From positions 1 through 35,749 of IMG/VR virus record IMGVR_UViG_3300036845_000341: DNA of 35,749 nt, one strand, 5' to 3'. Position numbers and translations under genes: made by a program. The stretch is from a virus. Below the pieces are notes generated by a model, which worked only from the letters and a program-made list of their open reading frames with translations, made no database searches and had not been told where the DNA came from. The stretch's first letter is position 1, and each line of letters starts with the position of its first letter. Shown in pieces: positions 3,556 to 31,936 of this stretch.

Positions 3556-6219
3556 CTGTGACTGTGTGCTTTGGAGAGTTCGCGTTGCGGTCTGCAACAG
3601 ATTGAGCGTGTTCGCGCTTGGCGTCTTGTCATAGGCCCGCGCGAGGCGCGTCCATCGATTGATCTGCCGTGGACCTTCCGGCTTTGCCAGGATCGTCGCG
3701 ACCTTCCGCAGGCCAAGCCCGGCCATCGCAGTGCCGATAGGATGAAGTGCAGCCGCGCCACCTGCCGCAAGCGCCGCACCGCCTTTAAGCACGCCGGACG
3801 CCAGCTTGTGCCATGCCGTGACTTGCGCGGTGCCCGAGGGATTGCCGTATTTCTTGATTGTGTCGGCGTACTGCTTGAGCGAGGTGTGGAAATCTTCCAT
3901 CGCCTCGCGGTGCGGCCTGTCGAGCATGATCGACTTGGCTTGCTTTGAATAATCGTCCCAATTTTTGACGAAGGCGCTGACGTTAAATTCTTCGCCGCCG
4001 CCGCCCATGTTGCGCAGCCACGCGCCGCGCAATTCGTTGCGGTTGGCTTCGGGCATCTTGCCCCACGTCCGCGCAAAGTTCTTGATGTCGCCGCCCTCGC
4101 GCATCATGCGATCAACGGTGTTGAACACCTGTTCGTCGCTGCGATTGCGCCCGAGAATTTTCCCGGCCAACTGTTCTGACTTGCCCGCTTCGGGCTTAAT
4201 CAGCTTCGGCTCATTTTCCTTGGCGATCCGCGCGGCATCCCGTAATTGGGCGGGCGTGTCCTGCGAGAGGCGCGAATAGCCGCGCATCAGATCATGCTCT
4301 TGCGGCTCGAATAGATGCGACCCCATGCGCGTCGGCGTGAAAGCATCGACATTGCGCGCAATGGCTGCCGGGCTGCCTTCGCTCATCGCATTCCAGTACG
4401 CGCCGCGCATCCGGTTGCGAAACTCGCCAGCGTTCGGAACGGCGTTGCTGATCGCTTCATAGAGCGGGGCGGAAACACGCCGGTTGCCGGGCTTCGCGCC
4501 GATCAGATTGTCGCGCAGCCCTTCCGGGCCGATGCCTCCGGTCACGATCTGGTTGAGCATCTTCGCGGCGTTGCGCGGCTCGCCTTCCGGCAAGCGGCGG
4601 TAGTTGTAACCAAACCGCTCCATCAGATCGCGGTGCGCCGCCCTCGCCGCGTCGATCACCGGCCCTGCGTTGGCTTCGCTGTCGGCGGTCAGATGTGAGC
4701 CGAGCGCGTCATTGCGCCAGTCGTCGAATGCACCTTTGATGGTGCGCGACGCGAAGCGATCTTCCGGGGTGTCGGCCTGCATCCCCATGCGACCGATGCG
4801 CTTGCTCAAATGCTCCAAGCCTTGAACCGAAACGGCATCGGCACCGGGCGCGGGAGCGTGGCGGCCGAGCATGCGGAAATCGGACGGCACTGCATCGGTG
4901 CCGCCAGGAAAACCCAATTGCTCAAGAACGCTTGCCGGGACGTTTGCGCCGTACTCCCGTTGCAACGCCTGCATCATGCGCGGCGGCACATTGGGAGGTA
5001 GTTCGCCCGGCTGGCCCGAAAGGCGGTCCAGTTCGCGCAGCATCGTCGATGCGTTCGATCCGGGGTCATCGATGCTGATACCCGCGTCGGAAAGTGCTTG
5101 CTCTGCACGCTGGCGCAGGGCTGGAAAAGCCGAAGTGTGAACGCGGGCGTCGAGATTGTTCACATCCGAATAAAGCGCATCCTTGCGCGTCCGCGCCTGC
5201 CGCGCCGCGCTCTGCACATCGTTGATAGTGTCTTGAGCCACCTCCATCGGAGCGGCGTTGCCAAAGGCGCGCTCTGCGGCGTTGTTGGCTTCTGCCTGCC
5301 GTGCCGTGATTGCCTGCTCGCGTGCGGCGTTTTCGGCCTCCCATGCCTGCACGCGCTTGGCGTGGTCAGCTTCCGCTGCGGCCTGTCCTTCGGCGGTCTC
5401 TTGCCCGGCCGCGCGCGACAGATTTCGCTCAATGCCGCCGCCGATGACGTTTTCCGGCAATTCCGGGCTGTATTGCGCGGCGATATTTTCGATATGCCCG
5501 CCAACCTGTTTCGGCACGGCCTGCACCGCTTCGCGCAACGGCGTCCCGACAATCGGCGCGACCGAAAGCGCCTGCCCGCCCGCCCTGACGGCAGGGCTGT
5601 CGCTGGTGATCGCGCGCGGCACATCGACCGGCATGCCTGCCTGACGCAGCCGCTCTAGCGCGGTCTGCGCTTCGGGCGCTGGCAGGGGCGGCGGTGTCGC
5701 GGGCGGACGCGGGATTTCAAAGAACGGCCTTGAGACATCGGCGGCTTTGCCAATCTCGCTGACGGTGCGCCCCACGCGCCCGGCGACTGATACGCCGCCG
5801 CCGATGAGCGTGGCGACATCGAGCGCAATTTTTGCCGGATGATTTGCAATCGTGTGCTTTAGGGCGTCCTCGCTGCCATAGCTTTCAACGAGGTCGTCAT
5901 AAACCGCTTTCGGAATTTTTTTGAGGATGGACGGATCGTCATAGATCGTTTTGCCGATGTCCTTTGCCATCGCTGCGCCAGCGAAAGGGCCATACTTCAA
6001 ATAAGGCGCTGCGGCGTGGGCGGCGCTGACTGCCGTTCCGACCACCCCTTTCGCGGTGTCGTAAGCATCCGGCAAAAAATGCTTCACCGCCTGTAGCGGG
6101 ACATCGGACCAATCCAACGGCCCTGCTTGATCGGTTTTCTTTTCCCCACTCCCGAACGGATCGACAAAATCTTTCCGGCCTTGATTTTCAAACGGATCGA
6201 CAAATTCAACTTGGGCCAT
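3553..6219 (-). CDS. Large internal virion / DNA-ejection protein
   Basis: An 888-residue, Ala/Arg/Glu-rich protein. The N-terminus carries a repeated short motif (VEFVDPFE then DFVDPFG, about residues 3-24) followed by LDWSDVPLQAVKHFLPDAYD, a pattern seen at the start of large ejection proteins of podoviruses and prophages. Residues around 60-125 are hydrophobic and glycine/alanine-rich, compatible with membrane insertion during DNA delivery; residues 230-330 are long helices. No peptidase or transglycosylase motif is recognised. The start used here gives a TGATG overlap with the upstream gene; an ATG nine codons earlier has no better ribosome site. Role inferred from size, composition and position after two other ejection-type genes. 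Confidence 0.7.
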   Translation of the reverse strand: MAQVEFVDPFENQGRKDFVDPFGSGEKKTDQAGPLDWSDVPLQAVKHFLPDAYDTAKGVVGTAVSAAHAAAPYLKYGPFAGAAMAKDIGKTIYDDPSILKKIPKAVYDDLVESYGSEDALKHTIANHPAKIALDVATLIGGGVSVAGRVGRTVSEIGKAADVSRPFFEIPRPPATPPPLPAPEAQTALERLRQAGMPVDVPRAITSDSPAVRAGGQALSVAPIVGTPLREAVQAVPKQVGGHIENIAAQYSPELPENVIGGGIERNLSRAAGQETAEGQAAAEADHAKRVQAWEAENAAREQAITARQAEANNAAERAFGNAAPMEVAQDTINDVQSAARQARTRKDALYSDVNNLDARVHTSAFPALRQRAEQALSDAGISIDDPGSNASTMLRELDRLSGQPGELPPNVPPRMMQALQREYGANVPASVLEQLGFPGGTDAVPSDFRMLGRHAPAPGADAVSVQGLEHLSKRIGRMGMQADTPEDRFASRTIKGAFDDWRNDALGSHLTADSEANAGPVIDAARAAHRDLMERFGYNYRRLPEGEPRNAAKMLNQIVTGGIGPEGLRDNLIGAKPGNRRVSAPLYEAISNAVPNAGEFRNRMRGAYWNAMSEGSPAAIARNVDAFTPTRMGSHLFEPQEHDLMRGYSRLSQDTPAQLRDAARIAKENEPKLIKPEAGKSEQLAGKILGRNRSDEQVFNTVDRMMREGGDIKNFARTWGKMPEANRNELRGAWLRNMGGGGEEFNVSAFVKNWDDYSKQAKSIMLDRPHREAMEDFHTSLKQYADTIKKYGNPSGTAQVTAWHKLASGVLKGGAALAAGGAAALHPIGTAMAGLGLRKVATILAKPEGPRQINRWTRLARAYDKTPSANTLNLLQTATRTLQSTQSQ

Positions 6220-7403
6220 CAACTGCCGCCGTATCTCTCTTTCCATTTGGTCGCGAGTTCACTGTCGCTCCACCCCGGATTTGCGGCACGCGCCTTGTCC
6301 ATAAATTCTTTCAAGGAAGGCTTCGCGGTTGTCGCTGCCGGTGCCGCCGCCGCTGGTGCGGCGGTTGCGGCTGGTGCCCCGGTTGGTGCTGCTGGCGTCG
6401 AGCCGCCCGGCTTATAGAATGTCTTGTTGCGAATGCCTTCCGCTTCGGCCGTCGATTGTTCGCTCAATCGTTTGAACATGGCATCCGCGCGGGTATAAAT
6501 CCGCTGCCGCACTTCGTCGGGCTGGTTTGCCGAGCTTTCCAACTCCTTCAACAATTGCAGATCGGTGTTGGTCACGCGCTGCGGGAAGATCGTCTTGGCA
6601 ACGTTGGCGACATTCGAGTGCGCCGCGTTAATGAGGTCTTGGGTATCAACCGCGCCCTTGCCGCCTGCCCAACTCGGGAGGAACGTCGCGGCATACTCCG
6701 AAGCTGTACCCGCGCCAGGAAAGCCCCACGCGGTTTTCGACAGTTCCTTGAGTTGCGCAATATTTTCGCGCGTGCGCTCTGCGGTGCTGGCCTGATCGGT
6801 CAGCGTGTTGACGCGCTTTTCCTCGCCCGCCGACAAATCCGCTTTCGGCATCTTGCCGCCGTTGGCAGCAAACGCCGTCGCCTGTTCGTCGGTCATTCCA
6901 AGGCTCTTGCCTGCTTGGAAATAGCCCTGCACTTCGCGCATCGGCGCGTTGATCTTGTTCGGGTCGGGCAGGTTTTGGCCGGTGACAATGTAACCACGAT
7001 ACATCGGGTCGTTGGGATCGAGGCCAGCGGCTTTGAGTTTTTGCGCGCGGCCGGTCGCGCTGTCCTCATCAAACGTTTCTTGCGCGCGCTTCTCTTGCGC
7101 CTGTCGAATGCGCTGCTGCGCTTCAAACTCGCGCACCGCTTCGGCATGCTGTGACTGTTGTTCGGCGCGCGTGGCCTGCTGGCCTTGCAACGTCAATCCC
7201 TGCGTCGCGAGCGTCGGATCGCCGGACTGGATCAGTGCTTGCGCGTTGGCGGTCGGATCGCTGCCCAATTGCGAGAGCGCCGACAATTGCCGTTGGCGGG
7301 CCTGCGCCGCCTGATAGACATCGCCGAGCTTCGCTAGCGGCGCAAAATCCGCGCCGCCGCTATAGGCTTGCGGCGTCGGAAACGAAATGCCCGCGACCGC
7401 CAT
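6219..7403 (-). CDS. Internal virion / ejection protein
   Basis: The 394-residue product is Gln/Ala-rich and strongly helical (about residues 20-125 contain repeated RQ, EQQ and QEKRAQE blocks). It opens with a TPQAYSGGADFAPLAKLG motif, part of which recurs in the ejection-type protein encoded two genes upstream. An Ala/Pro-rich linker (about 340-365) precedes a short C-terminal helix. It sits between the transglycosylase and the 888-residue protein, overlapping both by one to a few bases, as ejection genes of podoviruses usually do. Function is inferred from context. Confidence 0.65.
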   Translation of the reverse strand: MAVAGISFPTPQAYSGGADFAPLAKLGDVYQAAQARQRQLSALSQLGSDPTANAQALIQSGDPTLATQGLTLQGQQATRAEQQSQHAEAVREFEAQQRIRQAQEKRAQETFDEDSATGRAQKLKAAGLDPNDPMYRGYIVTGQNLPDPNKINAPMREVQGYFQAGKSLGMTDEQATAFAANGGKMPKADLSAGEEKRVNTLTDQASTAERTRENIAQLKELSKTAWGFPGAGTASEYAATFLPSWAGGKGAVDTQDLINAAHSNVANVAKTIFPQRVTNTDLQLLKELESSANQPDEVRQRIYTRADAMFKRLSEQSTAEAEGIRNKTFYKPGGSTPAAPTGAPAATAAPAAAAPAATTAKPSLKEFMDKARAANPGWSDSELATKWKERYGGS

Positions 7404-7960
7404 TACTTCCCTCCCAAGCTTGCTTCAAAGCGCCGCGCATAATCGTCAACGCTGGTGCCGAGAACGTCCTTTGCGTTCGGGTTGTTCATGCCGCCCTCGC
7501 CCGCGAACCATGCTTTCGCCGCGCCGGCCGGGCCGTACTTGTCCACGTAGCTGCCGAATTGAGAATTGAACACCGCATCCTGCGCGGCCGGGCTTGCCAG
7601 GAATTGATCGGGCGTCATCGCCTTGCCGAATACCTTTTCGGTCCACAGCGGAATGTTTCCGCCCATGATCTGATATTTTCCATAAGCGCGATCACCGCTC
7701 TTGGTGACAGGGCCGAGTTGATCGTATTTGCCGCCGCTTTCGATATTGGAGATCGCGGCGGCATAGGGTGACGACGACGGCGCGGCGGCTTGTGGCGTCG
7801 CCGCTTGCGGTGCCTGCGCTTGCGACGGATCGAACCGCGCACCGAGATCGGCGAGCGTTGCAGGTTTCGCCAGTGCCTTGCCGACGTTGCCAAGCGACGG
7901 CATCAGACCGAGATCGCTATAGGCTTGCGCTGACTGGAATTGCAGCGGCGTGGTCGCCAT
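7403..7960 (-). CDS. Virion-associated lytic transglycosylase
   Basis: The 185-residue protein has an N-terminal helical part, an Ala/Gln/Pro-rich linker (about 46-64) and a transglycosylase-type domain. The domain shows AAISNIESGGKYDQLGP with the probable catalytic glutamate at residue 74, followed by GDRAYGKYQIMGGNIPLW (about 89-106). This order (ESGG then YGxYQ) is that of SLT-like muramidases. In phages with such enzymes in the virion they open the peptidoglycan locally for genome ejection. The gene overlaps its neighbours on both sides by one base. It is the only cell-wall hydrolase in the window. Confidence 0.8.
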   Translation of the reverse strand: MATTPLQFQSAQAYSDLGLMPSLGNVGKALAKPATLADLGARFDPSQAQAPQAATPQAAAPSSSPYAAAISNIESGGKYDQLGPVTKSGDRAYGKYQIMGGNIPLWTEKVFGKAMTPDQFLASPAAQDAVFNSQFGSYVDKYGPAGAAKAWFAGEGGMNNPNAKDVLGTSVDDYARRFEASLGGK

Positions 7961-8760
7961 TAGCCGTAACCTGTCGGGCTACCGCCGCCCATGAACGAAT
8001 TGCCGAGGCGAAGGCTGGATGACAGGCTTGCCAGCGGCGACGATGCGAGGCTTGAGCCGCCGCCCATTAGCGAGCCGCCGAACGGATTGCCGCCGAGCGC
8101 GAGCGTGCCGAGCGACAGACCAGCACCGAGCAGATTTTTTGCGCCAGCGGCTTCGCCAGCGGCTTGCAGATTATTCGCGCCGATGGTGCCGGTCGCAACG
8201 TTGCTGGCGACGCCGGACTGATCCTCGCCGTACTGTGTCGCCAGATTGGCGAGCGAGCCGTAACCCGAAGCCTGCCCCTGCGCCGCCGCGCCGGTCGCCT
8301 GCACGCCGGTATTGCCAGCGGCTTGCAGGTTTTGAATATATTGCTGGTACTGATTACTGGTGACGCCCGCCGCGCCCAAGATCGAAGCAATATCGGCATT
8401 GCCGCTCGCACCCATGCCGCCAGCGGCTTGTTGCCGTGACACCGCTTGCGACGTGCTGTCGAGCAAAGCCTGATAGCCGGGCGTGTTCTGGAACGTGCTT
8501 TGCGCCTGTGCGACTTCCTGCGGCGTGCCGCTGCCGAGCGCGGCCATCAATGTCGGGGCGGCCTGCGAATAGGTCTGCCCAAGCTTGGCGAGCGGCGAGT
8601 AAGCACCGACCGCCGAATTGAGCGCCTGCGAGCCGGTCGTGTAGCCCTGTTGAAGCGCAGGCAGTGCAGTGTTTTGATATGTGCCGAGCGCAGCCTTGTC
8701 CGCATTGGCCGCATCGGTTTCGGCCCCGCCGCCGAACAGCGTGGAGAGAAAACTTGCCAT
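7960..8760 (-). CDS. Internal virion / DNA-injection protein
   Basis: A 266-residue Ala/Gly/Ser/Gln-rich protein. Residues 20-170 are amphipathic helices with few charges. The segment AYSPLAKLGQTYSQAA (about 53-68) resembles a motif near the N-terminus of the 394-residue protein downstream. The last 60 residues are a low-complexity Gly/Ser/Leu tail. This fits P22 gp7/gp20-like injection proteins in size and composition, though no specific similarity can be claimed. It is the first of three consecutive ejection-type genes. Confidence 0.65.
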   Translation of the reverse strand: MASFLSTLFGGGAETDAANADKAALGTYQNTALPALQQGYTTGSQALNSAVGAYSPLAKLGQTYSQAAPTLMAALGSGTPQEVAQAQSTFQNTPGYQALLDSTSQAVSRQQAAGGMGASGNADIASILGAAGVTSNQYQQYIQNLQAAGNTGVQATGAAAQGQASGYGSLANLATQYGEDQSGVASNVATGTIGANNLQAAGEAAGAKNLLGAGLSLGTLALGGNPFGGSLMGGGSSLASSPLASLSSSLRLGNSFMGGGSPTGYG

Positions 8761-8772
8761 AGGCTTTCGCCT

Positions 8773-9348
8773 TCAATTTGTTGGGTAGTAGAAAACGAAG
8801 TTGACCGAGCGACTGACGTTGTTGAGATCGGCGCAATTCAGCGCGACTTCGCTGGTGCTGCTGGTCAGTTTGTAGAGGTTGACGACGGATGCGCCGGGCG
8901 CTCCATCAGCAAACGCCAAGTTGCCGATGCCGCCGTTGAAGTAGGTGCCAGCGTTCAAGCGAGCCGCAATCGACGATGAAGCGACCGGGAACGGCAGCGA
9001 CATTTGAAGCTGGTTGGCCCCGGCACCGGCAACGCCGCCTGCGGTGTTGATGCCGCCAACCCGCAAGAAGCAAACGCGACCGATCTTGAAGCAATTGCCG
9101 AATAGCGGTGTTGCCGTAAAAGTCGGGACGGTGCCGCCGCCGATGGACGTCAGCACCGGGGTATAAGTGCTTTCGCTGTAAGCGCCATGCTGGATGAACG
9201 AGGCCAGCGCGGTTTCGAGCGTCGTGACGCGGCTATCGAGCGTCGCGATCTGCGCGACCATCGTTCTGAATTTTTCGTACCAGATCGGATCAACGCCGGT
9301 CGGCTGATCGACAACAATGTTTTGTGCGGGCAGCACAATCGGTTTCAC
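8773..9348 (-). CDS. Tail appendage / needle-type structural protein
   Basis: The 191-residue product begins at a GTG that overlaps the stop of the hub gene as GTGA. Residues 22-55 form a short coiled coil (KFRTMVAQIATLDSRVTTLE). The C-terminal 130 residues are rich in Gly, Thr, Ser and Asn with alternating hydrophobics, ending in RSVNFVFYYPTN, which suggests a beta-sandwich or jelly-roll tip like those of tailspike and needle proteins. Directly after the gp10-like hub, a tail-needle or fibre role is plausible but not proven. Confidence 0.65.
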   Translation of the reverse strand: MKPIVLPAQNIVVDQPTGVDPIWYEKFRTMVAQIATLDSRVTTLETALASFIQHGAYSESTYTPVLTSIGGGTVPTFTATPLFGNCFKIGRVCFLRVGGINTAGGVAGAGANQLQMSLPFPVASSSIAARLNAGTYFNGGIGNLAFADGAPGASVVNLYKLTSSTSEVALNCADLNNVSRSVNFVFYYPTN

Positions 9349-22457: not shown

Positions 22458-22503
22458 TGCCTGCCTCGCTTGATCGTCCCGAAAATAAATTCACAAATCC
22501 CCT

Positions 22504-22532
22504 TGTATAGGTCTTGACGGCCTAGGCCGTAA
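22504..22532 (-). promoter_or_regulatory. Candidate leftward promoter for the terminase side
   Basis: On the minus strand TTACGG (22532-22527), 17 bases, TATACA (22509-22504). It overlaps the rightward promoter and its operator, so both directions could be shut by one regulator. Confidence 0.45.
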
Positions 22533-22542
22533 CTGCCTAATG
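22514..22542 (+). promoter_or_regulatory. Cassette 1 promoter with 17-bp operator
   Basis: TTGACG at 22514 and TAATGT/CTAATG at 22537-22543 form the promoter. The operator TAGGCCGTAACTGCCTA spans 22523-22539 and reaches into the -10. Preceded by AAAATAAAT-like and CTTGTATAGGTC sequences shared with cassette 2. The leader carries AAGGGGAAAA at 22567. Confidence 0.75.
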
Positions 22543-22582
22543 TCCGGCATTGGTCAACGCCAACGCAAGGGGAAAACTTCAG

Positions 22583-23461
22583 ATGGCAACCAACCTTTAC
22601 CAGAACGTCACCGCTCGCATTCTCTCTCAACTCGAAAACGGCTTTGCACCGTGGGTTAAGCCGTGGTCGGCAACGCCCGGCCAGAACGTGCCGCACAATG
22701 CCGCGACTGGTCGTCCCTATTCCGGCTGCAACGTCGTTCTGTTGTGGATGTCGCAAGGCGCGTATCGGTCGCCGCGCTTCCTGACATTCAAGCAAGCGTT
22801 GGATTTGGGCGGCAATGTCAAAAAGGGCGAGCACGGCTTTAAGGTCTATTTCGTCAAGACCGTGACCGGCAAAAAAGCCAAGTCGGAAGGCGAGGAAGAT
22901 CAGCGCGGCTACACCATGTTGAAAGAGTACACCGTTTTCAACGTTGACCAGTGCGAGGGCTTGCCGGATCGGATCGTCACGCCGTCGCCGATCAAGCCGC
23001 GCCACAACGATGAGCGCGACGCCACGATTGACGAATTTCTAGGCGTGTCCGGTGCCGACATCCGCGAGGGCTTCGGCGAGGCTTACTATTCACCCGGTCA
23101 AGACTTCGTTTCGCTGCCCGCTTTCGCCGCGTTCAAATCCGCCGCGCATTTCTACGGCGTCACGTTCCACGAATTGGCGCATTGGACCGGCCACAAGTCG
23201 CGGCTTGATCGCGATCTGAAAAACCGCTTCGGCACGCGCGCCTATGCCGCCGAGGAATTGGTCGCCGAGCTAACCGCCGCGTTCCTCTGCGCAGAGTTCA
23301 ACATCGATGGCGAGTTGCGCCATGCGGCCTATATCGCGTCGTGGATCGAACTACTCAAGGATGACGCCAAGGCGTTTTTCACTGCGGCCAGCGCCGCGCA
23401 AAAGGCCGCTGACTTCCTGCGGTCGCGCGCGCTCGCTGACGAAATCCCGCTCGCTGCCTAA
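22583..23461 (+). CDS. ardC: ArdC-type antirestriction protein
   Basis: The 292-residue protein has the two-part structure of ArdC. The N-terminal ssDNA-binding domain shows NVTARILSQLENGFAPWVKPW (near 7-27), GRPYSGCNVVLLW (about 40-52) and EYTVFNVDQCEGLP (about 115-128). The C-terminal zincin-like domain has HELAHWTGH (about 196-204), containing the HExxH zinc motif, and a downstream EELVAELTAAFLC helix supplying the third ligand. ArdC-family proteins protect incoming DNA from restriction. The ATG used follows AAGGGGAAAA by six bases; an upstream GTG/ATG reading is rejected. Alone in cassette 1, between a dedicated promoter and terminator. Confidence 0.9.
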   Translation: MATNLYQNVTARILSQLENGFAPWVKPWSATPGQNVPHNAATGRPYSGCNVVLLWMSQGAYRSPRFLTFKQALDLGGNVKKGEHGFKVYFVKTVTGKKAKSEGEEDQRGYTMLKEYTVFNVDQCEGLPDRIVTPSPIKPRHNDERDATIDEFLGVSGADIREGFGEAYYSPGQDFVSLPAFAAFKSAAHFYGVTFHELAHWTGHKSRLDRDLKNRFGTRAYAAEELVAELTAAFLCAEFNIDGELRHAAYIASWIELLKDDAKAFFTAASAAQKAADFLRSRALADEIPLAA

Positions 23462-23482
23462 GCCCGGCGACGCCTTCCCAAT

Positions 23483-23514
23483 AAAGCCCGGCCTCGCAAG
23501 CCGGGCTTTTTCTT
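23483..23514 (+). terminator. Cassette 1 terminator
   Basis: AAAGCCCGGC and GCCGGGCTTT pair around a seven-base loop and are followed by a T-rich run. The core GCCCGGC/GCCGGGC is repeated in the terminators of cassettes 2 and 3. Confidence 0.9.
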
Positions 23515-23542
23515 TGCCTTGAAAATAAATCCCCTATAGGTC

Positions 23543-23571
23543 TTGACTGCCTAGGCCGTAACTGCCTAAAT
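23543..23571 (+). promoter_or_regulatory. Cassette 2 promoter with 17-bp operator
   Basis: TTGACT at 23543 and CTAAAT/TAAATC at 23566-23572 form the promoter. The operator TAGGCCGTAACTGCCTA at 23552-23568 is identical to that of cassette 1. The AAGGGGAAAA leader lies at 23596. Confidence 0.75.
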
Positions 23572-23611
23572 CGGAATTGCGCAATCCAGCGCAGCAAGGG
23601 GAAAACTTGGA

Positions 23612-23881
23612 ATGTTCGATCACAACCAAATGCGCGAACTAGCGGCGGTCTCTGCCGACCGCTACCAGCGCAACGGCGGCGGCGGGGCGCATAAGGTCTA
23701 TGCGTCGTCGAAAGCCTTTCACGACGCGCGCGGCTACAAAGAAATGTCACCGTTTCGTCGCGCGGCCTATGAGGCTTCGATCATGTTCCGGCAAGCCGCA
23801 AACAACGCGGCGGCCGGTTTCCGTTTCGATTGCCTCGCGCCGTCGCTTGATACCGATGCGAGCGGTTATGTCCCGTTCTAA
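23612..23881 (+). CDS. Cassette 2 small protein, unknown
   Basis: An 89-residue protein, the first gene of cassette 2, with AAGGGGAAAA six bases before the ATG. Sequence features: a Gly-rich loop (NGGGGAHKVYASSKAFHDARGYKE, about 21-44), then a helix with PFRRAAYEASIMFRQAANNAAAG. It resembles small uncharacterised prophage proteins; no motif gives a function. Its end overlaps the next gene by 14 bases. Confidence 0.7.
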   Translation: MFDHNQMRELAAVSADRYQRNGGGGAHKVYASSKAFHDARGYKEMSPFRRAAYEASIMFRQAANNAAAGFRFDCLAPSLDTDASGYVPF

Positions 23882-24029
23882 TCAATCAGAAATGCCCGGT
23901 ACGTCGCCCGATGTCGGCGGCCTTCTCAAGATCAAGGCCGCCGCGCCAATCAAACCAGCAAAGCCGCAAGCGCCCTGTGACGCGGGTTTGTTTTCCGATA
24001 CAGCAAAGCAAAAGGAATTATTCCGATGA
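23868..24029 (+). CDS. Cassette 2 small linker-like protein
   Basis: A 53-residue protein with Lys/Pro/Ala-rich composition (KIKAAAPIKPAKPQAPCDAG), likely disordered. Overlaps the previous gene by 14 bases and the next as ATGA, which supports translation. Function unknown. Confidence 0.6.
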   Translation: MSRSNQSEMPGTSPDVGGLLKIKAAAPIKPAKPQAPCDAGLFSDTAKQKELFR

Positions 24030-24496
24030 ACCTCACGACGCCCGAACTACTCAAGGCCGTTCAACACGCGTTGAATACCATCCCGCGCAAATCGCTTCCC
24101 GGCTGCCCGCACGGGATCAAGGATAGCTATCAGCTTGCCTCGCTGATCGATGAAGCGGTGAAGCGCCCCGACGAAACCACAGAGGCCGCGTGTTGCCTTT
24201 GGGAAGCCGTGCTTGCGGTCAGGCAGTGCGAAAAAAATCCGCCTTGGCAAAAGCGCCTATTGGCCGATTGGGAAAGTCACGGCACGTCGTCGATGCGAAT
24301 TTCTGCGATCCATGCCGCGCCGCAAATGGATCAGGTTTGGAACGCGTTGACCGATGCCGAGCGCGACGAATTTGGCTGTTTCGATTGGGATTTCGTCCCG
24401 GTCTATCTCGCTTGCGTGCTCTACCACGAAACCAATCCCGGCATGGGCCGCGATGAGGCGTTGACGATCATGCGAGCGCGTCTCCATGAGCGATGA
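24026..24496 (+). CDS. Cassette 2 protein, unknown
   Basis: The 156-residue product is helical and acidic, with NLTTPELLKAVQHALNTIPRKSL at the start and LTDAERDEFGCFDWDFVPVYLACVLYHE near 112-138. No catalytic or binding motif was recognised. It is coupled by ATGA to the preceding gene and overlaps the next by 11 bases. As part of a cassette array led by an antirestriction gene, an anti-defence role is a hypothesis only. Confidence 0.7.
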   Translation: MNLTTPELLKAVQHALNTIPRKSLPGCPHGIKDSYQLASLIDEAVKRPDETTEAACCLWEAVLAVRQCEKNPPWQKRLLADWESHGTSSMRISAIHAAPQMDQVWNALTDAERDEFGCFDWDFVPVYLACVLYHETNPGMGRDEALTIMRARLHER

Positions 24497-24596
24497 GCGC
24501 GAACAGATCAAGCGCCGCCTCGCCGAAATCGAGCGCATGCGGAAATGGCTGGATGAATTTCTAAAACGCATCCAGCCAAGCCAAACCCTTCACTAA
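24486..24596 (+). CDS. Cassette 2 terminal micro-protein
   Basis: A 36-residue protein (MSDEREQIKRRLAEIERMRK at the start) forming one amphipathic, probably coiled-coil helix. It starts 11 bases before the end of the previous gene and stops just before the terminator, which argues that it is real despite its length. Confidence 0.55.
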   Translation: MSDEREQIKRRLAEIERMRKWLDEFLKRIQPSQTLH

Positions 24597-24597
24597 C

Positions 24598-24630
24598 AGC
24601 AAGCCCGGCCATCGTGCCGGGCTTTTTGCT
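24598..24630 (+). terminator. Cassette 2 terminator
   Basis: AAGCCCGGC and GCCGGGCTT pair around a six-base loop, followed by T-rich sequence; outer AGC/GCT may extend the stem. Confidence 0.9.
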
Positions 24631-24656
24631 GCCTGAAAATAATTTCGCTGTAGGGC

Positions 24657-24686
24657 TTGACGGCCTAGGCTGTTACGGCCTAGAAC
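24657..24686 (+). promoter_or_regulatory. Cassette 3 promoter with 17-bp operator
   Basis: TTGACG at 24657 and CTAGAA/TAGAAC at 24680-24686. The operator TAGGCTGTTACGGCCTA at 24666-24682 has complete palindromic arms. AAGGGGAAAA leader at 24703. Confidence 0.7.
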
Positions 24687-24717
24687 AGGGCATTCGCAAC
24701 GCAAGGGGAAAATCGCG

Positions 24718-24930
24718 ATGTACGATCTAAGCCAACCGAACGACAAGCCGGGTATCTGCCGCAAGTGCAAGGGCAAAGGCATTTACGGATGGGGCGCAAG
24801 CGTCAACGGCAAGATGACGCATTCCGGCCCGTGCTTTTCCTGCCGTGGCACCGGCAAGCAATCCGTCCGCCAGATCATGAGGAACCAAACCTATAACCGG
24901 CATAAGATCGCCACCATCGCCCGGCTTTAG
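24718..24930 (+). CDS. DnaJ-type zinc-finger mini-protein
   Basis: A 70-residue protein with CRKCKGKG (14-21) and CFSCRGTG (39-46), the two half-sites of the DnaJ central zinc finger (CxxCxGxG) without any J domain. The C-terminus is basic (VRQIMRNQTYNRHKIATIARL). Such stand-alone fingers may bind unfolded proteins or nucleic acid. It is the only gene of cassette 3. Confidence 0.8.
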   Translation: MYDLSQPNDKPGICRKCKGKGIYGWGASVNGKMTHSGPCFSCRGTGKQSVRQIMRNQTYNRHKIATIARL

Positions 24931-24952
24931 GTAGCCTCTCAATCAAGTCAGG

Positions 24953-24979
24953 AAGCCCGGCCATTGCGCCGGGCTTTTT
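24953..24979 (+). terminator. Cassette 3 terminator
   Basis: AAGCCCGGC and GCCGGGCTT pair around a six-base loop, followed by five T. It lies 22 bases after the preceding stop. Confidence 0.9.
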
Positions 24980-24989
24980 GTTTGGGCTA

Positions 24990-25018
24990 TTGCGGCCTAG
25001 GCCGTTACCGCCTATGCT
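24990..25018 (+). promoter_or_regulatory. Cassette 4 promoter with 17-bp operator
   Basis: TTGCGG at 24990, 17 bases, TATGCT at 25013. The operator TAGGCCGTTACCGCCTA spans 24998-25014. AAGGGGAAA leader at 25042. The -35 is weaker than in the other cassettes. Confidence 0.7.
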
Positions 25019-25053
25019 AGGGCCGCGCAATCAAGCGCAGCAAGGGGAAATAA

Positions 25054-25086
25054 ATGCGAAAATCGAAAAAGAGGCCAAAGCAATGA
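25054..25086 (+). CDS. Ten-residue basic leader peptide
   Basis: The ATG right after the cassette leader opens [10 protein letters not shown] and stops with TGA that overlaps the ATG of the next gene (ATGA). The cassette ribosome site therefore belongs to this peptide, and the membrane protein downstream is probably translated by coupling. Six of ten residues are basic. Confidence 0.5.
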   Translation: MRKSKKRPKQ

Positions 25087-25286
25087 TCGGGTTCATTCGC
25101 TTTTGCTTTGCCGTGATCGTTGGCTGTATCGCGCTTTATTGCGTGATCGCGATCCTGTTCATTTTTGGGTATGCCGGTTTCATGGGCTGGCTACTTAGCA
25201 CAAGCCTCACAAGCCAAGACAAACCCACGCCCGTCAAAATCGAGCGCCCGTTAAAGCTACATCCAACAAAGGGACCGAAAGAGTGA
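25083..25286 (+). CDS. Cassette 4 small membrane protein
   Basis: The 67-residue product has a long hydrophobic stretch at about 4-40 ([20 protein letters not shown], then [11 protein letters not shown]), one long or two short membrane segments, followed by a basic/Pro-rich soluble tail ([16 protein letters not shown]). The ATG overlaps the leader-peptide stop; the stop overlaps the GTG of the recombinase as GTGA. Function unknown; superinfection exclusion is one possibility for such phage membrane proteins. Confidence 0.65.
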
Positions 25287-25942
25287 AAACCGCAATCAGC
25301 TATCGGCGCTTGTCGAAAGAGCGCAAGGGCAAGCCAAACTTCGGACTGGATGCGCAGCAAGCCGCAATTGCCGCGTTTTGCAATCTTGAGGGTTACGAGA
25401 TCGTGCAAGACTTCGCCGAGATCGAAACCGGCAAGGGATCGGACGCGCTGGAACGTCGGCCGCAACTCGACGCGGCGTTGAAGGCCGCCAAGAAACTGAA
25501 AGCGCCGGTCATCATCGCAAAGCTAGATCGGCTGTCGCGTGATGTCGCGTTCATCGCCGGTCTAATGTCGCAGCGCGTGCCGTTCATCGTGTGCGAGTTA
25601 GGGCCAAACGTCGATCCGTTCATGCTGCACATCTATGCGGCGGTCGCCGAGAAAGAGCGGCGCATGATCGCACAGCGCACCGTTGACGCGCTCGCGGCGG
25701 CCAAGGCGCGCGGCGTCAAGCTTGGCAATCCCGAACAAGCGCAGAAAAATTGCGAGATCGCCGACGCGTTCGCAGAAAGTCTGCGCGCGGAAGTGTGGCC
25801 GTATCGCAATCTTTCATCGCGACGGTTGGCCGCGTTCCTCAACGCGCGGGACATCAAGACGCCGCAGGGCAAAAGCTGGAAGCCGGGCAATGTCGCGCGG
25901 CTGGTTGAACGTCTCATTGCCAACGCAAAGGAAGCCGCATGA
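25283..25942 (+). CDS. Small serine recombinase / resolvase
   Basis: A 219-residue protein with a resolvase catalytic domain: ISYRRLSKE with the probable nucleophile Ser at residue 11, [17 protein letters not shown] (about 73-89) with the conserved Arg pair, and [23 protein letters not shown] (about 120-142), the long dimer helix. The C-terminus ([35 protein letters not shown]) is the short DNA-binding part of this family. It starts at GTG, coupled to the preceding gene. It is distinct from the 559-residue integrase; it could drive excision control, inversion or cassette exchange. Confidence 0.85.
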
Positions 25943-26172
25943 CGAAAGCGCCTAAGAAAAAAATCGATGATAGCGGCATGTCCGGCGCAGAGTTGTGGAC
26001 CAAACTGCAAAAACTCGGTTTCTCGCAAGTCGGCTTTGCCCGCACCATCAATGTCGGAGATCGCACCGTTCGCAGTTGGATCGCAGAGGTCTACCCGGTG
26101 CCGACCGCGATTGCGATGCTGGTTAACCTGATGCTGAAAACCAAAACAACCGCAGAGGACTTGAAAGTATGA
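25939..26172 (+). CDS. HTH DNA-binding protein, Cro/C1-type
   Basis: The 77-residue protein has an [31 protein letters not shown] segment (about 18-48), an XRE-like helix-turn-helix ([20 protein letters not shown]). It is the penultimate gene of cassette 4 and could be the regulator of the 17-bp cassette operators; that link is inferred only from location. It overlaps its neighbours by four bases. Confidence 0.7.
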
Positions 26173-26282
26173 TCCATTATTTTCTTTTGGGAGCGTTCGT
26201 GTTGGGCGGCATCGCGTGGTTTCTGCATTTCCTCAACCTTTGGAGTGCAGAAAAGCGCCGCCAAAATAAACACGACGCCTAA
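26169..26282 (+). CDS. Single-pass membrane micro-protein
   Basis: A 37-residue protein, [20 protein letters not shown] at the start (one membrane helix) and a basic end (EKRRQNKHDA). Its ATG overlaps the previous stop as ATGA and a terminator follows within 30 bases. Function unknown. Confidence 0.55.
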   Translation: MIHYFLLGAFVLGGIAWFLHFLNLWSAEKRRQNKHDA

Positions 26283-26312
26283 GCGCCGCGCCAAGTCAGG
26301 GGGAGGAACAAG

Positions 26313-26345
26313 AAAGGCCGGGAGTGACCCCGGCCTTTCCGTTTT
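26313..26345 (+). terminator. Cassette 4 terminator
   Basis: AAAGGCCGGG and CCCGGCCTTT pair around a six-base loop, followed by CCGTTTT. A relic of the cassette leader (GCAAGGGGAAAC at 26361) follows without a gene. Confidence 0.85.
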
Positions 26346-26427
26346 CATGAGTGCGTGACCGCAAGGGGAAACTCGCTATCTCACAGATCACGAAACTAGC
26401 CGATTTGGATGCCGAAACGCCCTTTTG

Positions 26428-31489: not shown

Positions 31490-31518
31490 TGGACACACTT
31501 AATTATTACGCCAAGCTT
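31490..31518 (+). promoter_or_regulatory. Repressor promoter region with operator-like site
   Basis: TTAATTATTAC (31499-31509) matches the operator with one change. TGGACA at 31490 is a candidate -35 in the same geometry, but the -10 (AAGCTT or TTACAA further on) is poor, as for a weak, regulated maintenance promoter. Confidence 0.45.
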
Positions 31519-31543
31519 ACAATTGCGGAGGGGGAGTTTAGCC

Positions 31544-31936
31544 GTGGCGAAGATTGAGGGCTTTGATGTCGCCGCCTATCGGACACGCTTGCGGCTGCTG
31601 CGCGAGATCGTATCAGGCGAGAACCAAGTTGAATTTTCGCAGCGGTTAGGCATTCCGTTCAAGCGGTGGAGTAATTACGAACGCGGTTATCCGGTGCCGC
31701 GCGAGACCGCTTTTCTTCTGATGAAAAAATTTCCGGGGATTTCGGTTGAATGGCTTTGGTTCGGAATGACAGGCAACCTGTCCCATTTTTATCTGGAAAA
31801 AATAAAAACCGCCGAGGGATTTGAAAAAGAACGAATTGCCGCCGAGAAGGCCGCGACCAAGGCCACGGCCAAGCTCAAGGAGGTCACGAGCAAGCGCAAG
31901 CGGGCGATCTATCCAGGTTCCCCGCGCTCGCGCTGA
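31544..31936 (+). CDS. Phage repressor, XRE-family HTH
   Basis: The 130-residue protein starts at GTG with GGAGGGGGAG just upstream; a TTG seven codons earlier is inside that ribosome site. Residues about 8-62 form an XRE helix-turn-helix: YRTRLRLLREIVSGENQVEFSQRLGIPFKRWSNYERGYPVPRETAFLL. Then VEWLWFGMTG, frequent after XRE domains in prophage repressors. The C-terminus (85-130) is a Lys/Ala-rich coiled coil. There is no LexA/CI-type peptidase, so induction cannot be by RecA-stimulated self-cleavage of this protein. Its probable operators are the GTAAnnnTTAC sites. Confidence 0.8.
   Translation: MAKIEGFDVAAYRTRLRLLREIVSGENQVEFSQRLGIPFKRWSNYERGYPVPRETAFLLMKKFPGISVEWLWFGMTGNLSHFYLEKIKTAEGFEKERIAAEKAATKATAKLKEVTSKRKRAIYPGSPRSR

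Follow-up and report, generated by a model that had tools for sequence, protein, structure and literature searches.

The 35,749-nt viral record analysed here (the window, meaning the whole stretch of DNA) carries four consecutive gene units with repeated promoters, leaders and terminators and different cargo. We think it likely that an Aca-like repressor controls this array as a regulon, and that the units are exchangeable early cassettes of accessory, at least partly anti-defence, genes in a temperate alphaproteobacterial phage, the host of which is probably Bradyrhizobium. About 26 related arrays were recovered, with differing cargo in a common slot that is fixed, as in the window, between the terminase-small and replication genes; almost all of them end with a small serine recombinase and an HTH protein of 70–80 aa. 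DNA comparison with known phages gave as its sole match a short piece of ardC (≤126 bp), mostly in Caulobacter phages.

Each unit starts at a promoter overlaid by two palindromes. Perfect copies of TAGGCnGTnACnGCCTA begin at 22523, 23552, 24666 and 24998, with no other copy in the 35.7-kb record, and each is overlapped by a second, degenerate 17-mer (2–3 mismatches) that begins 15 bp upstream, at 22508, 23537, 24651 and 24983, and contains the −35 box. Lying between and over the −35 and −10 boxes, the tandem 17-mers form an inverted repeat inside the core promoter, as is found at Aca loci.

22508–22542, + strand: promoter P1 with tandem putative operator (17-mers at 22508–22524, 2 mismatches, and 22523–22539, perfect; −35 TTGACG at 22514–22519; −10 CTAATG at 22537–22542)
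23537–23571, + strand: promoter P2 with tandem putative operator (−35 TTGACT; −10 CTAAAT)
24651–24685, + strand: promoter P3 with tandem putative operator (−35 TTGACG; −10 CTAGAA)
24983–25018, + strand: promoter P4 with tandem putative operator (−35 TTGCGG; −10 TATGCT)

With up to three mismatches allowed, the 17-mer matched the window 10 times against 0.55 expected from shuffles (0 of 100 shuffles reached 10); in unrelated viral contigs matches were many, all of them single copies. The −10 boxes CTAATG, CTAAAT and CTAGAA are weak, and a promoter scanner run on the window did not flag them. An earlier note on this DNA had described four blocks sharing operator-promoter, leader and terminator, and this layout is confirmed, every unit having its perfect 17-mer, AAGGGGAAA leader and terminator. 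The single palindrome that the note saw at each promoter is present, but the overlapping degenerate copy 15 bp upstream had been missed; likewise, its TTGACG-like −35 is found in units 1–3 (TTGACG or TTGACT) but not in unit 4 (TTGCGG).

The leaders and terminators of the window are near-copies of each other.

22567–22575, + strand: AAGGGGAAA leader 1, of ardC, an extended Shine–Dalgarno sequence
23596–23604, + strand: AAGGGGAAA leader 2 (GCGC hairpin upstream)
24703–24711, + strand: AAGGGGAAA leader 3
25042–25050, + strand: AAGGGGAAA leader 4 (GCGC hairpin upstream)
26363–26372, + strand: orphan AAGGGGAAAC that closes the array on the right, after unit 4, with no start codon or gene behind it; conserved in relatives
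23483–23515, + strand: intrinsic terminator 1 (stem 23483–23509; −16.7 kcal/mol, z −4.0)
24597–24628, + strand: intrinsic terminator 2, GCCCGGC stem (24601–24624)
24949–24980, + strand: intrinsic terminator 3 (stem 24953–24976)
26312–26345, + strand: intrinsic terminator 4 (stem 26312–26339)

The leaders precede the first ATG by 3–7 nt, not by the 4–6 first reported; in unit 4 this ATG (25054) opens a 10-codon ORF overlapping, or coupled to, the real start of the membrane gene at 25083. In 18 related loci, too, an orphan leader (AAGGGGAAA) stands at the right end. A simple terminator scanner applied to the window listed the first and last stems only, its T-tail rule probably being the reason that terminators 2 and 3 were skipped.

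The first unit carries an anti-defence gene, a further feature of Aca loci, recognised by sequence alone from its ArdC domains; most of the remaining cargo has no family match.

22583–23461, + strand: ArdC-type antirestriction protein (ArdcN and MPTase-PolyVal; Pfam 2.3e-37 and 7.8e-47; phrog_7245 4e-90)
23612–23881, + strand: 89-aa protein, the commonest family-less P-cassette cargo (9 of 26 arrays)
23868–24029, + strand: 53-aa protein without family match, overlapping both neighbours
24026–24496, + strand: 156-aa protein without family match
24486–24596, + strand: 36-aa protein without family match
24718–24930, + strand: DnaJ-type zinc-finger protein, 70 aa (Pfam PF00684 4.2e-05, below the curated cut-off)
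25083–25286, + strand: small membrane protein; almost every relative has a different gene here
25283–25942, + strand: small serine recombinase with Resolvase domain, 219 aa (Pfam PF00239 7.9e-22; family in 23 of 26 arrays)
25939–26172, + strand: XRE-type HTH protein of 77 aa; putative Aca-like repressor acting on P1–P4
26169–26282, + strand: micro membrane protein, 37 aa, variable among relatives

Domain and family searches agreed with the cargo calls made earlier (ArdC, small unknowns, a DnaJ-type finger, and a membrane protein, serine recombinase, HTH protein and micro membrane protein). The 89-aa protein had no match in phages, and structure prediction gave a poor model of it (pLDDT 61). 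PADLOC and NCBIfam made no defence assignment among the cargo. The suggestion that the other genes do the same job as ardC gains from the recurrence of ArdC (9 arrays) and ArdA (4 arrays; ArdA domain in relative L005, 4.7e-42), but since most cargo lacks a family match, an anti-defence role beyond ArdC and ArdA is proposed through guilt by association.

The small HTH regulator gene lies downstream within the locus, again as at Aca loci. The model of its product (pLDDT 85.5) is all-helical with a confident HTH, and its best structural matches were Aca2 (Z 9.7), MqsA (8.9), HigA2 (8.9), Aca10 (8.2) and Aca1 (8.1), Aca proteins and antitoxin HTH domains being tied; XRE folds are common. By sequence, nothing in NCBIfam scored above cut-off, a profile search of PDB sequences gave hits at E>0.08 only, with no significant match to a solved Aca protein, and phage and plasmid proteins matched weakly, among them one of Bradyrhizobium phage ppBeUSDA76-2. 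The palindromes look like repressor operators and not recombination flanks, with the Aca-like HTH gene in the last unit. We infer that the HTH protein binds the 17-mers and represses P1–P4, and the putative operator at P4 suggests that it regulates its own gene. HTH similarity and operator similarity were correlated (r 0.44, p 0.0016), but not once phage relatedness was controlled (partial r −0.14); co-variation is confounded with relatedness, was rejected as proof of binding and cannot by itself show that the operator is that of the HTH protein.

Operators are alike within a phage and different between phages. P-type promoters of relatives also hold their operators in the −35/−10 spacer. For 9 phages, a reduced set, the 5-mer similarity of spacers was 0.25 within and 0.06 between phages, a result that none of 5000 permutations reached. 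A divergent type of HTH is common to L059 and the Bradyrhizobium prophage L078, as is an operator resembling GGYCTTAAAGGCCTA. L060 and L068 lack an HTH gene downstream of the recombinase, and an unrelated operator, TCCAAATwATTTGGA, occupies the same position in their promoters, a difference that counts in favour of the proposed regulon; at the same time, operators in arrays with no HTH gene mean that a regulator can sit elsewhere than in the array.

Cargo turnover among the relatives is extensive: the arrays hold 177 genes, which fall into 73 families, and 50 of these families are singletons. Other genes occupy the same slot between near-identical flanks, one leader precedes seven different first genes, and a 54-aa gene (F2) occurs in 10 arrays with differing neighbours. 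The 156-aa gene of the window is replaced by an unrelated 75-aa gene in L005 and L008 and is missing in L036, where the DnaJ-type finger gene is present without a promoter of its own. The earlier note had proposed a modular array with cargo exchange, to be sought in related phages; gene content was not identical throughout, and different genes were found in the common slot. Its account of exchange between repeated flanks needs changing, in that the palindromes do not look like such flanks: junctions in relatives fall at different points in the leader and hairpin modules, inside AAGGGGAAA, in the hairpin linker or in the loop of the second hairpin. Together with cargo families found under different operators, this indicates that promoters mostly stay resident.

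In the relatives, promoterless cassettes start at a covarying double-hairpin RNA module, its hairpin 6–10 nt past most upstream stops, with Shine–Dalgarno sequence and ATG about 36 nt further on and TTNNGGCANTAG as its conserved core. The module was absent from the window, where single leaders and terminators are found, and neither the window nor six relatives, when scanned against Rfam, gave a match at the curated threshold. The module might alternatively consist of RNase III sites like those of T7, or of antiterminators like the put sites of HK022.

We propose the following course of events. Four sigma-70-type promoters, each with its −35/−10 spacer filled by tandem palindromic operators, would be bound and repressed by the 77-aa Aca-like HTH protein from the last, autoregulated unit. 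On entry into a repressor-free cell, all units would fire together, presumably early, making ArdC and the other products; as the HTH protein builds up it would close the set and, in a lysogen, keep it closed. Relatives would retain promoters, leaders and end unit while coding cargo is swapped by short-homology recombination between the leaders, hairpins and terminators that are repeated along the array; a good candidate for the agent of this exchange is the Erf-like annealase encoded by the phage itself.

29163–29813, − strand: Erf-like single-strand annealing protein, which may carry out cassette exchange (phrog_1097 7.5e-41)

Other accounts of the shared promoters were considered. The operators could belong to the main immunity repressor, making the array a set of ordinary prophage-silenced early or lytic operons and giving the HTH protein some other role. 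L060 and L068, with uniform operators and no HTH gene, speak for this, as does a palindrome, CGTAATNATTACG, found upstream of the first array promoter in the L047–L057 group and related to sites adjoining a repressor-like gene (31523–31936) in the window. However, CGTAATNATTACG is a different site from the 17-mer, whose perfect copies are confined to the array with none near that gene, and an operator heads the unit with the HTH gene, as autoregulation would predict; we regard this account as unlikely. That the units are morons without relation to one another, each bringing a promoter and terminator of its own, alike through duplication and with no common regulation or special function, is more improbable still. 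Moron-like genes are common in temperate phages, and terminators and leaders are near-copies as well as promoters, but operators are uniform in each phage and differ between phages, and one cargo family (the 89-aa family, in the window, L060 and L068) stands under different operators, which argues for maintained co-regulation and not simple duplication.

Cassette movement might instead be integron-like, the end-unit serine recombinase inserting and excising cassettes at a repeated element (operator, leader or hairpin) as attachment site. The recombinase is nearly universal and usually adjoins the HTH gene, cassettes of relatives are bounded on both sides by a uniform module at fixed spacing, and on the right the array finishes with the orphan AAGGGGAAAC. 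Against this, L005, L008 and L046 exchanged cargo without a recombinase, recombinase copies are broken in the Bradyrhizobium prophages L085 and L086, operator type is independent of the recombinase and no tyrosine integrase is encoded in the window; we give this explanation little credence. The 17-mer was rejected as the recombinase site, as operators are still there in arrays that lack a recombinase and differ among arrays that have one, and site-specific exchange was rejected because junctions do not fall at one point, the scatter fitting short-homology recombination better than a site-specific integron. Equally doubtful is a dedicated gene-capture platform, with the double-hairpin/leader module as a purpose-built boundary, read by the serine recombinase or by an RNA- or ssDNA-level mechanism, and promoterless anti-defence cassettes plugged integron-like into a resident repressor-controlled promoter. 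A mobile integron would have an IntI-type tyrosine recombinase and attC sites (GTTRRRY core, one fixed crossover). The window record had no PF00589 match (search controls matched), its recombinases being serine-type; no GTTRRRY stood at the expected place in the alignment, read by eye, and the array differs further in its module core, its scattered junctions and the absence of the module from the window.

The earlier note knew of no described system of this form, but there are close functional analogues: the p576 Reg regulon, the SIRV2 Aca8 regulon, the SAS/ESAS of cluster K mycobacteriophages and the PeSLs of T4-type phages, reportedly treated in Arbiol 2010 and Comeau 2014. According to excerpts of PMC8708921, the establishment regulon of p576 (clade II pLS20 family) has ardC and the repressor Reg as constants among variable operons; operators flank the promoters, Reg is autoregulated, expression on entry is brief and operon-wise cargo shuffling has been proposed. 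The array resembles it, as there described, in combining ardC, a repressor and variable operons under common operators, with autoregulation suggested by the P4 operator. It differs in belonging to a tailed phage and not to conjugative Bacillus plasmids, in the all-helical HTH model of its regulator (Reg is a predicted ribbon-helix-helix protein), and in the end-unit recombinase and double-hairpin module, which those excerpts do not describe for p576.

Known Aca promoters have one or two inverted repeats, always one in the core promoter (PMC9410906). The array shares with acr–aca operons (Aca1–Aca10, PMC9410906) this arrangement and a small HTH protein encoded last, with the same structural neighbours (HigA2, MqsA), but no acr gene was recognised in it, several separately promoted units replace one operon and its HTH sequence was not placed in any known Aca family. 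In the archaeal rudivirus SIRV2, small variable early anti-defence genes each follow a regulatory sequence that varies by virus, and a single Aca (Aca8) is proposed to shut them off (PMC11065993). The common virus-specific upstream sequence, the variable early genes and the one proposed Aca are points of likeness; archaeal promoters and viruses, and the lack of a tandem terminator-bounded array with recombinase, are points of difference.

PeSLs are composite early promoter/stem-loop elements between accessory genes, through which modules are shuffled (excerpts of PMC4503421); by description, not sequence, they resemble the array in repeated elements at cassette borders and cargo exchange, and as described there they have no tie to an array-encoded repressor or antirestriction genes. 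The SAS/ESAS are repeated start-associated leaders, about half with upstream 17-bp inverted repeats, of which the consensus differs by subcluster (PMC3203893). They are similar in these respects, but the leader is a 13-bp GGGATAGGAGCCC and not AAGGGGAAA, and the sites are scattered over half the genome with no antirestriction array.

The array would thus extend to tailed phages the repressor-controlled multi-promoter anti-defence regulon known in Bacillus plasmids and archaeal viruses, adding a covarying RNA module unmatched by Rfam families at the curated threshold. The shared operator, AAGGGGAAA leader, hairpin module, recombinase–HTH end unit and fixed slot offer a genomic signature by which candidate anti-defence genes could be gathered from alphaproteobacterial phages of soil; the majority of the cargo families collected so far are confined to one array.

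The cassette array of the window is built from four units that carry the same regulatory flanks around different cargo. A search of the window, an IMG/VR virus record of 35,749 bases, found the palindromic 17-mer TAGGCnGTnACnGCCTA perfectly matched at four positions, and allowing up to three mismatches gave 10 matches against 0.55 expected, a number reached in 0 of 100 shuffles. Some of the additional matches are degenerate copies, one lying 15 bp upstream of each perfect site. Every promoter therefore has a pair of overlapping palindromes (TAGGTCTTGACGGCCTAGGCCGTAACTGCCTA), the first of which contains the −35 and the second of which extends into the −10. The leader AAGGGGAAA is followed by an ATG 3–7 nt downstream, and each unit is closed by a terminator-like hairpin. 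The units are as follows.

Unit 1 (17-mer at 22523, leader at 22567): ArdC, with ArdcN and MPTase-PolyVal domains
Unit 2 (23552, 23596): four overlapping small genes, none with a confident family match
Unit 3 (24666, 24703): a 70-aa protein with a DnaJ-type zinc finger (PF00684, 4.2e-05, under the curated cut-off)
Unit 4 (24998, 25042): small membrane protein, small serine recombinase (PF00239, 7.9e-22), HTH protein (25939–26172) and micro membrane protein

Directly 3′ of the fourth leader, a 10-codon ORF (25054–25086) overlaps the start of the membrane gene and looks like a translational coupler. At the right end of the array, AAGGGGAAAC (26363–26372) stands without a start codon and is kept in 18 related loci despite differing flanks; translation does not explain this orphan copy. 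The remainder of the record resembles a temperate phage, with long structural-type ORFs running leftward in its left part, a leftward Erf-like annealase and Gam-like protein in its right part and, at the right end, a repressor-like gene and a large serine integrase.

Related arrays were collected by searching viral contigs for the 17-mer plus leader (L005–L008) and through the HTH protein (20 loci); a hairpin pattern described below brought in more. In most relatives the array sits in the same position, between a terminase-small-like gene, or adjacent leftward genes, and the convergent family cl2. The 26 arrays compared hold 177 genes, which group into 73 families; 50 families have a single member. 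Of these arrays, 23 have the serine recombinase and 23 the HTH protein, which also occurs in L036, counted separately as the gene caller had overlooked it; ArdC is found in nine and ArdA in four. The earlier note had read the cassettes as units added by recombination, a reading at odds with identical content in all relatives. No such uniformity was seen, because even close relatives of the window differ from it by whole genes. L005 and L008 have an unrelated 75-aa gene in place of the 156-aa gene, ArdA inserted behind the zinc-finger gene (with one more gene there in L008) and no serine recombinase. In the L007/L036 phage, the zinc-finger gene follows unit 2 directly and lacks a promoter of its own. 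In several phages a short overlapping hydrophobic ORF of about 22 aa (MVIDF...) follows a 54-aa gene (for example, L053:2836–2910).

A related array or its remnant was also found in Bradyrhizobium genomes, and these copies make Bradyrhizobium, or a genus close to it, the probable host of the window phage. In L070 the recombinase and HTH genes are preceded by a promoter with TAGGCCATGATGGCCTA; L085 and L086, whose source genomes were searched as the genus of L070, have the end unit only, in the same slot.

Many cassettes of the relatives begin without a promoter, at a module in which two hairpins precede a conserved TTNNGGCANTAG core, AAGGGGAAA and an ATG. Across 32 sequences, hairpin 1 shows both-side changes at 12 of 15 pairs, and 93.9% of its cells are paired compared with 76.4% in shuffles and at most 52% in sliding controls; G-U pairs are frequent in the outer stem, which points to selection at the level of the transcript. 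With a covariance model, 48 copies of this covarying, intercistronic module with a GNRA-like loop were found in relatives (L005–L068), and none in the window. None of the 48 lies in a called gene; for 46 of them a Shine–Dalgarno sequence and a start codon occur within 80 nt, and most start 6–10 nt past the upstream stop codon. Rfam 15 at gathering thresholds gave no match to the module in the loci tested. L069, the contig of another phage, has five weaker copies (6841–8887) with a different Shine–Dalgarno sequence (GGAGA), so the module may extend beyond the present phage family.

Exchange of cargo shows in the relatives. Seven relatives have a near-identical promoter and leader ahead of different first genes, with identity stopping at the Shine–Dalgarno sequence. 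The 54-aa gene (F2), found in ten arrays, has eight different upstream genes, lies once directly behind a promoter and once at a contig edge, and follows both promoter-type and hairpin-type leaders; an 89-aa family occurs under differing operators. Junctions fall within AAGGGGAAA, at the inter-hairpin linker or in the second loop. This scatter argues against a single fixed site and fits recombination between short stretches of repeated homology, with the Erf-like protein as a plausible agent. Three arrays (L005, L008 and L046) show exchange though they lack the serine recombinase, and the recombinase is broken in the Bradyrhizobium prophages L085 (frameshifted) and L086 (split, apparently by a transposase gene, at about 4233–6865 in reverse-complement orientation). 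The HTH gene stays open in both.

Repressor-controlled, separately promoted early anti-defence genes are already described for p576-type plasmids (PMC8708921) and for SIRV2 with Aca8 (PMC11065993). T4-type phages have PeSLs, repeated regulatory cassettes that aid accessory-gene shuffling (as cited in PMC4503421), and cluster K mycobacteriophages have recurring leaders at gene starts, accompanied by 17-bp inverted repeats (PMC3203893). The array appears to combine these known features in tailed alphaproteobacterial phages; its end unit pairs an Aca-like HTH protein with a serine recombinase, and the relatives add the structured module.

P-type promoters of the relatives carry a palindrome in the spacer that separates −35 from −10; it is common to the promoters of one phage and differs from phage to phage (operator similarity 0.25 within and 0.06 between nine representative phages; 0 of 5,000 permutations as high). 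The structure model of the HTH protein (pLDDT 85.5) matched Aca2 (Z 9.7), MqsA and HigA2 (8.9), Aca10 (8.2) and Aca1 (8.1), with little to separate these scores. Aca proteins in the literature share these structural neighbours, and their promoters contain one or two inverted repeats (PMC9410906). By analogy with Aca and p576 work (PMC8708921), the array would burst on in a repressor-free cell and then be shut off. HTH and operator similarity were correlated (Mantel r 0.44, p 0.0016), but this is no proof of binding, since the positive signal was gone once cl2 was used to control for relatedness (partial r −0.14). L059 and the Bradyrhizobium prophage L078 share an operator resembling GGYCTTAAAGGCCTA, together with a divergent type of HTH protein. 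In the L060 and L068 arrays, an unrelated operator (TCCAAATwATTTGGA) occupies the equivalent promoter position, and the recombinase has no HTH gene behind it.

A further palindrome, CGTAATNATTACG, has window sites at one mismatch at 31498, 32290, 33217 and 21057, and one such site lies immediately upstream of the repressor-like gene (31523–31936). In relatives L047–L057 it lies at the promoter of a 44-aa gene as well as at the first promoter of the array; sites of this type may serve the phage immunity repressor as operators.
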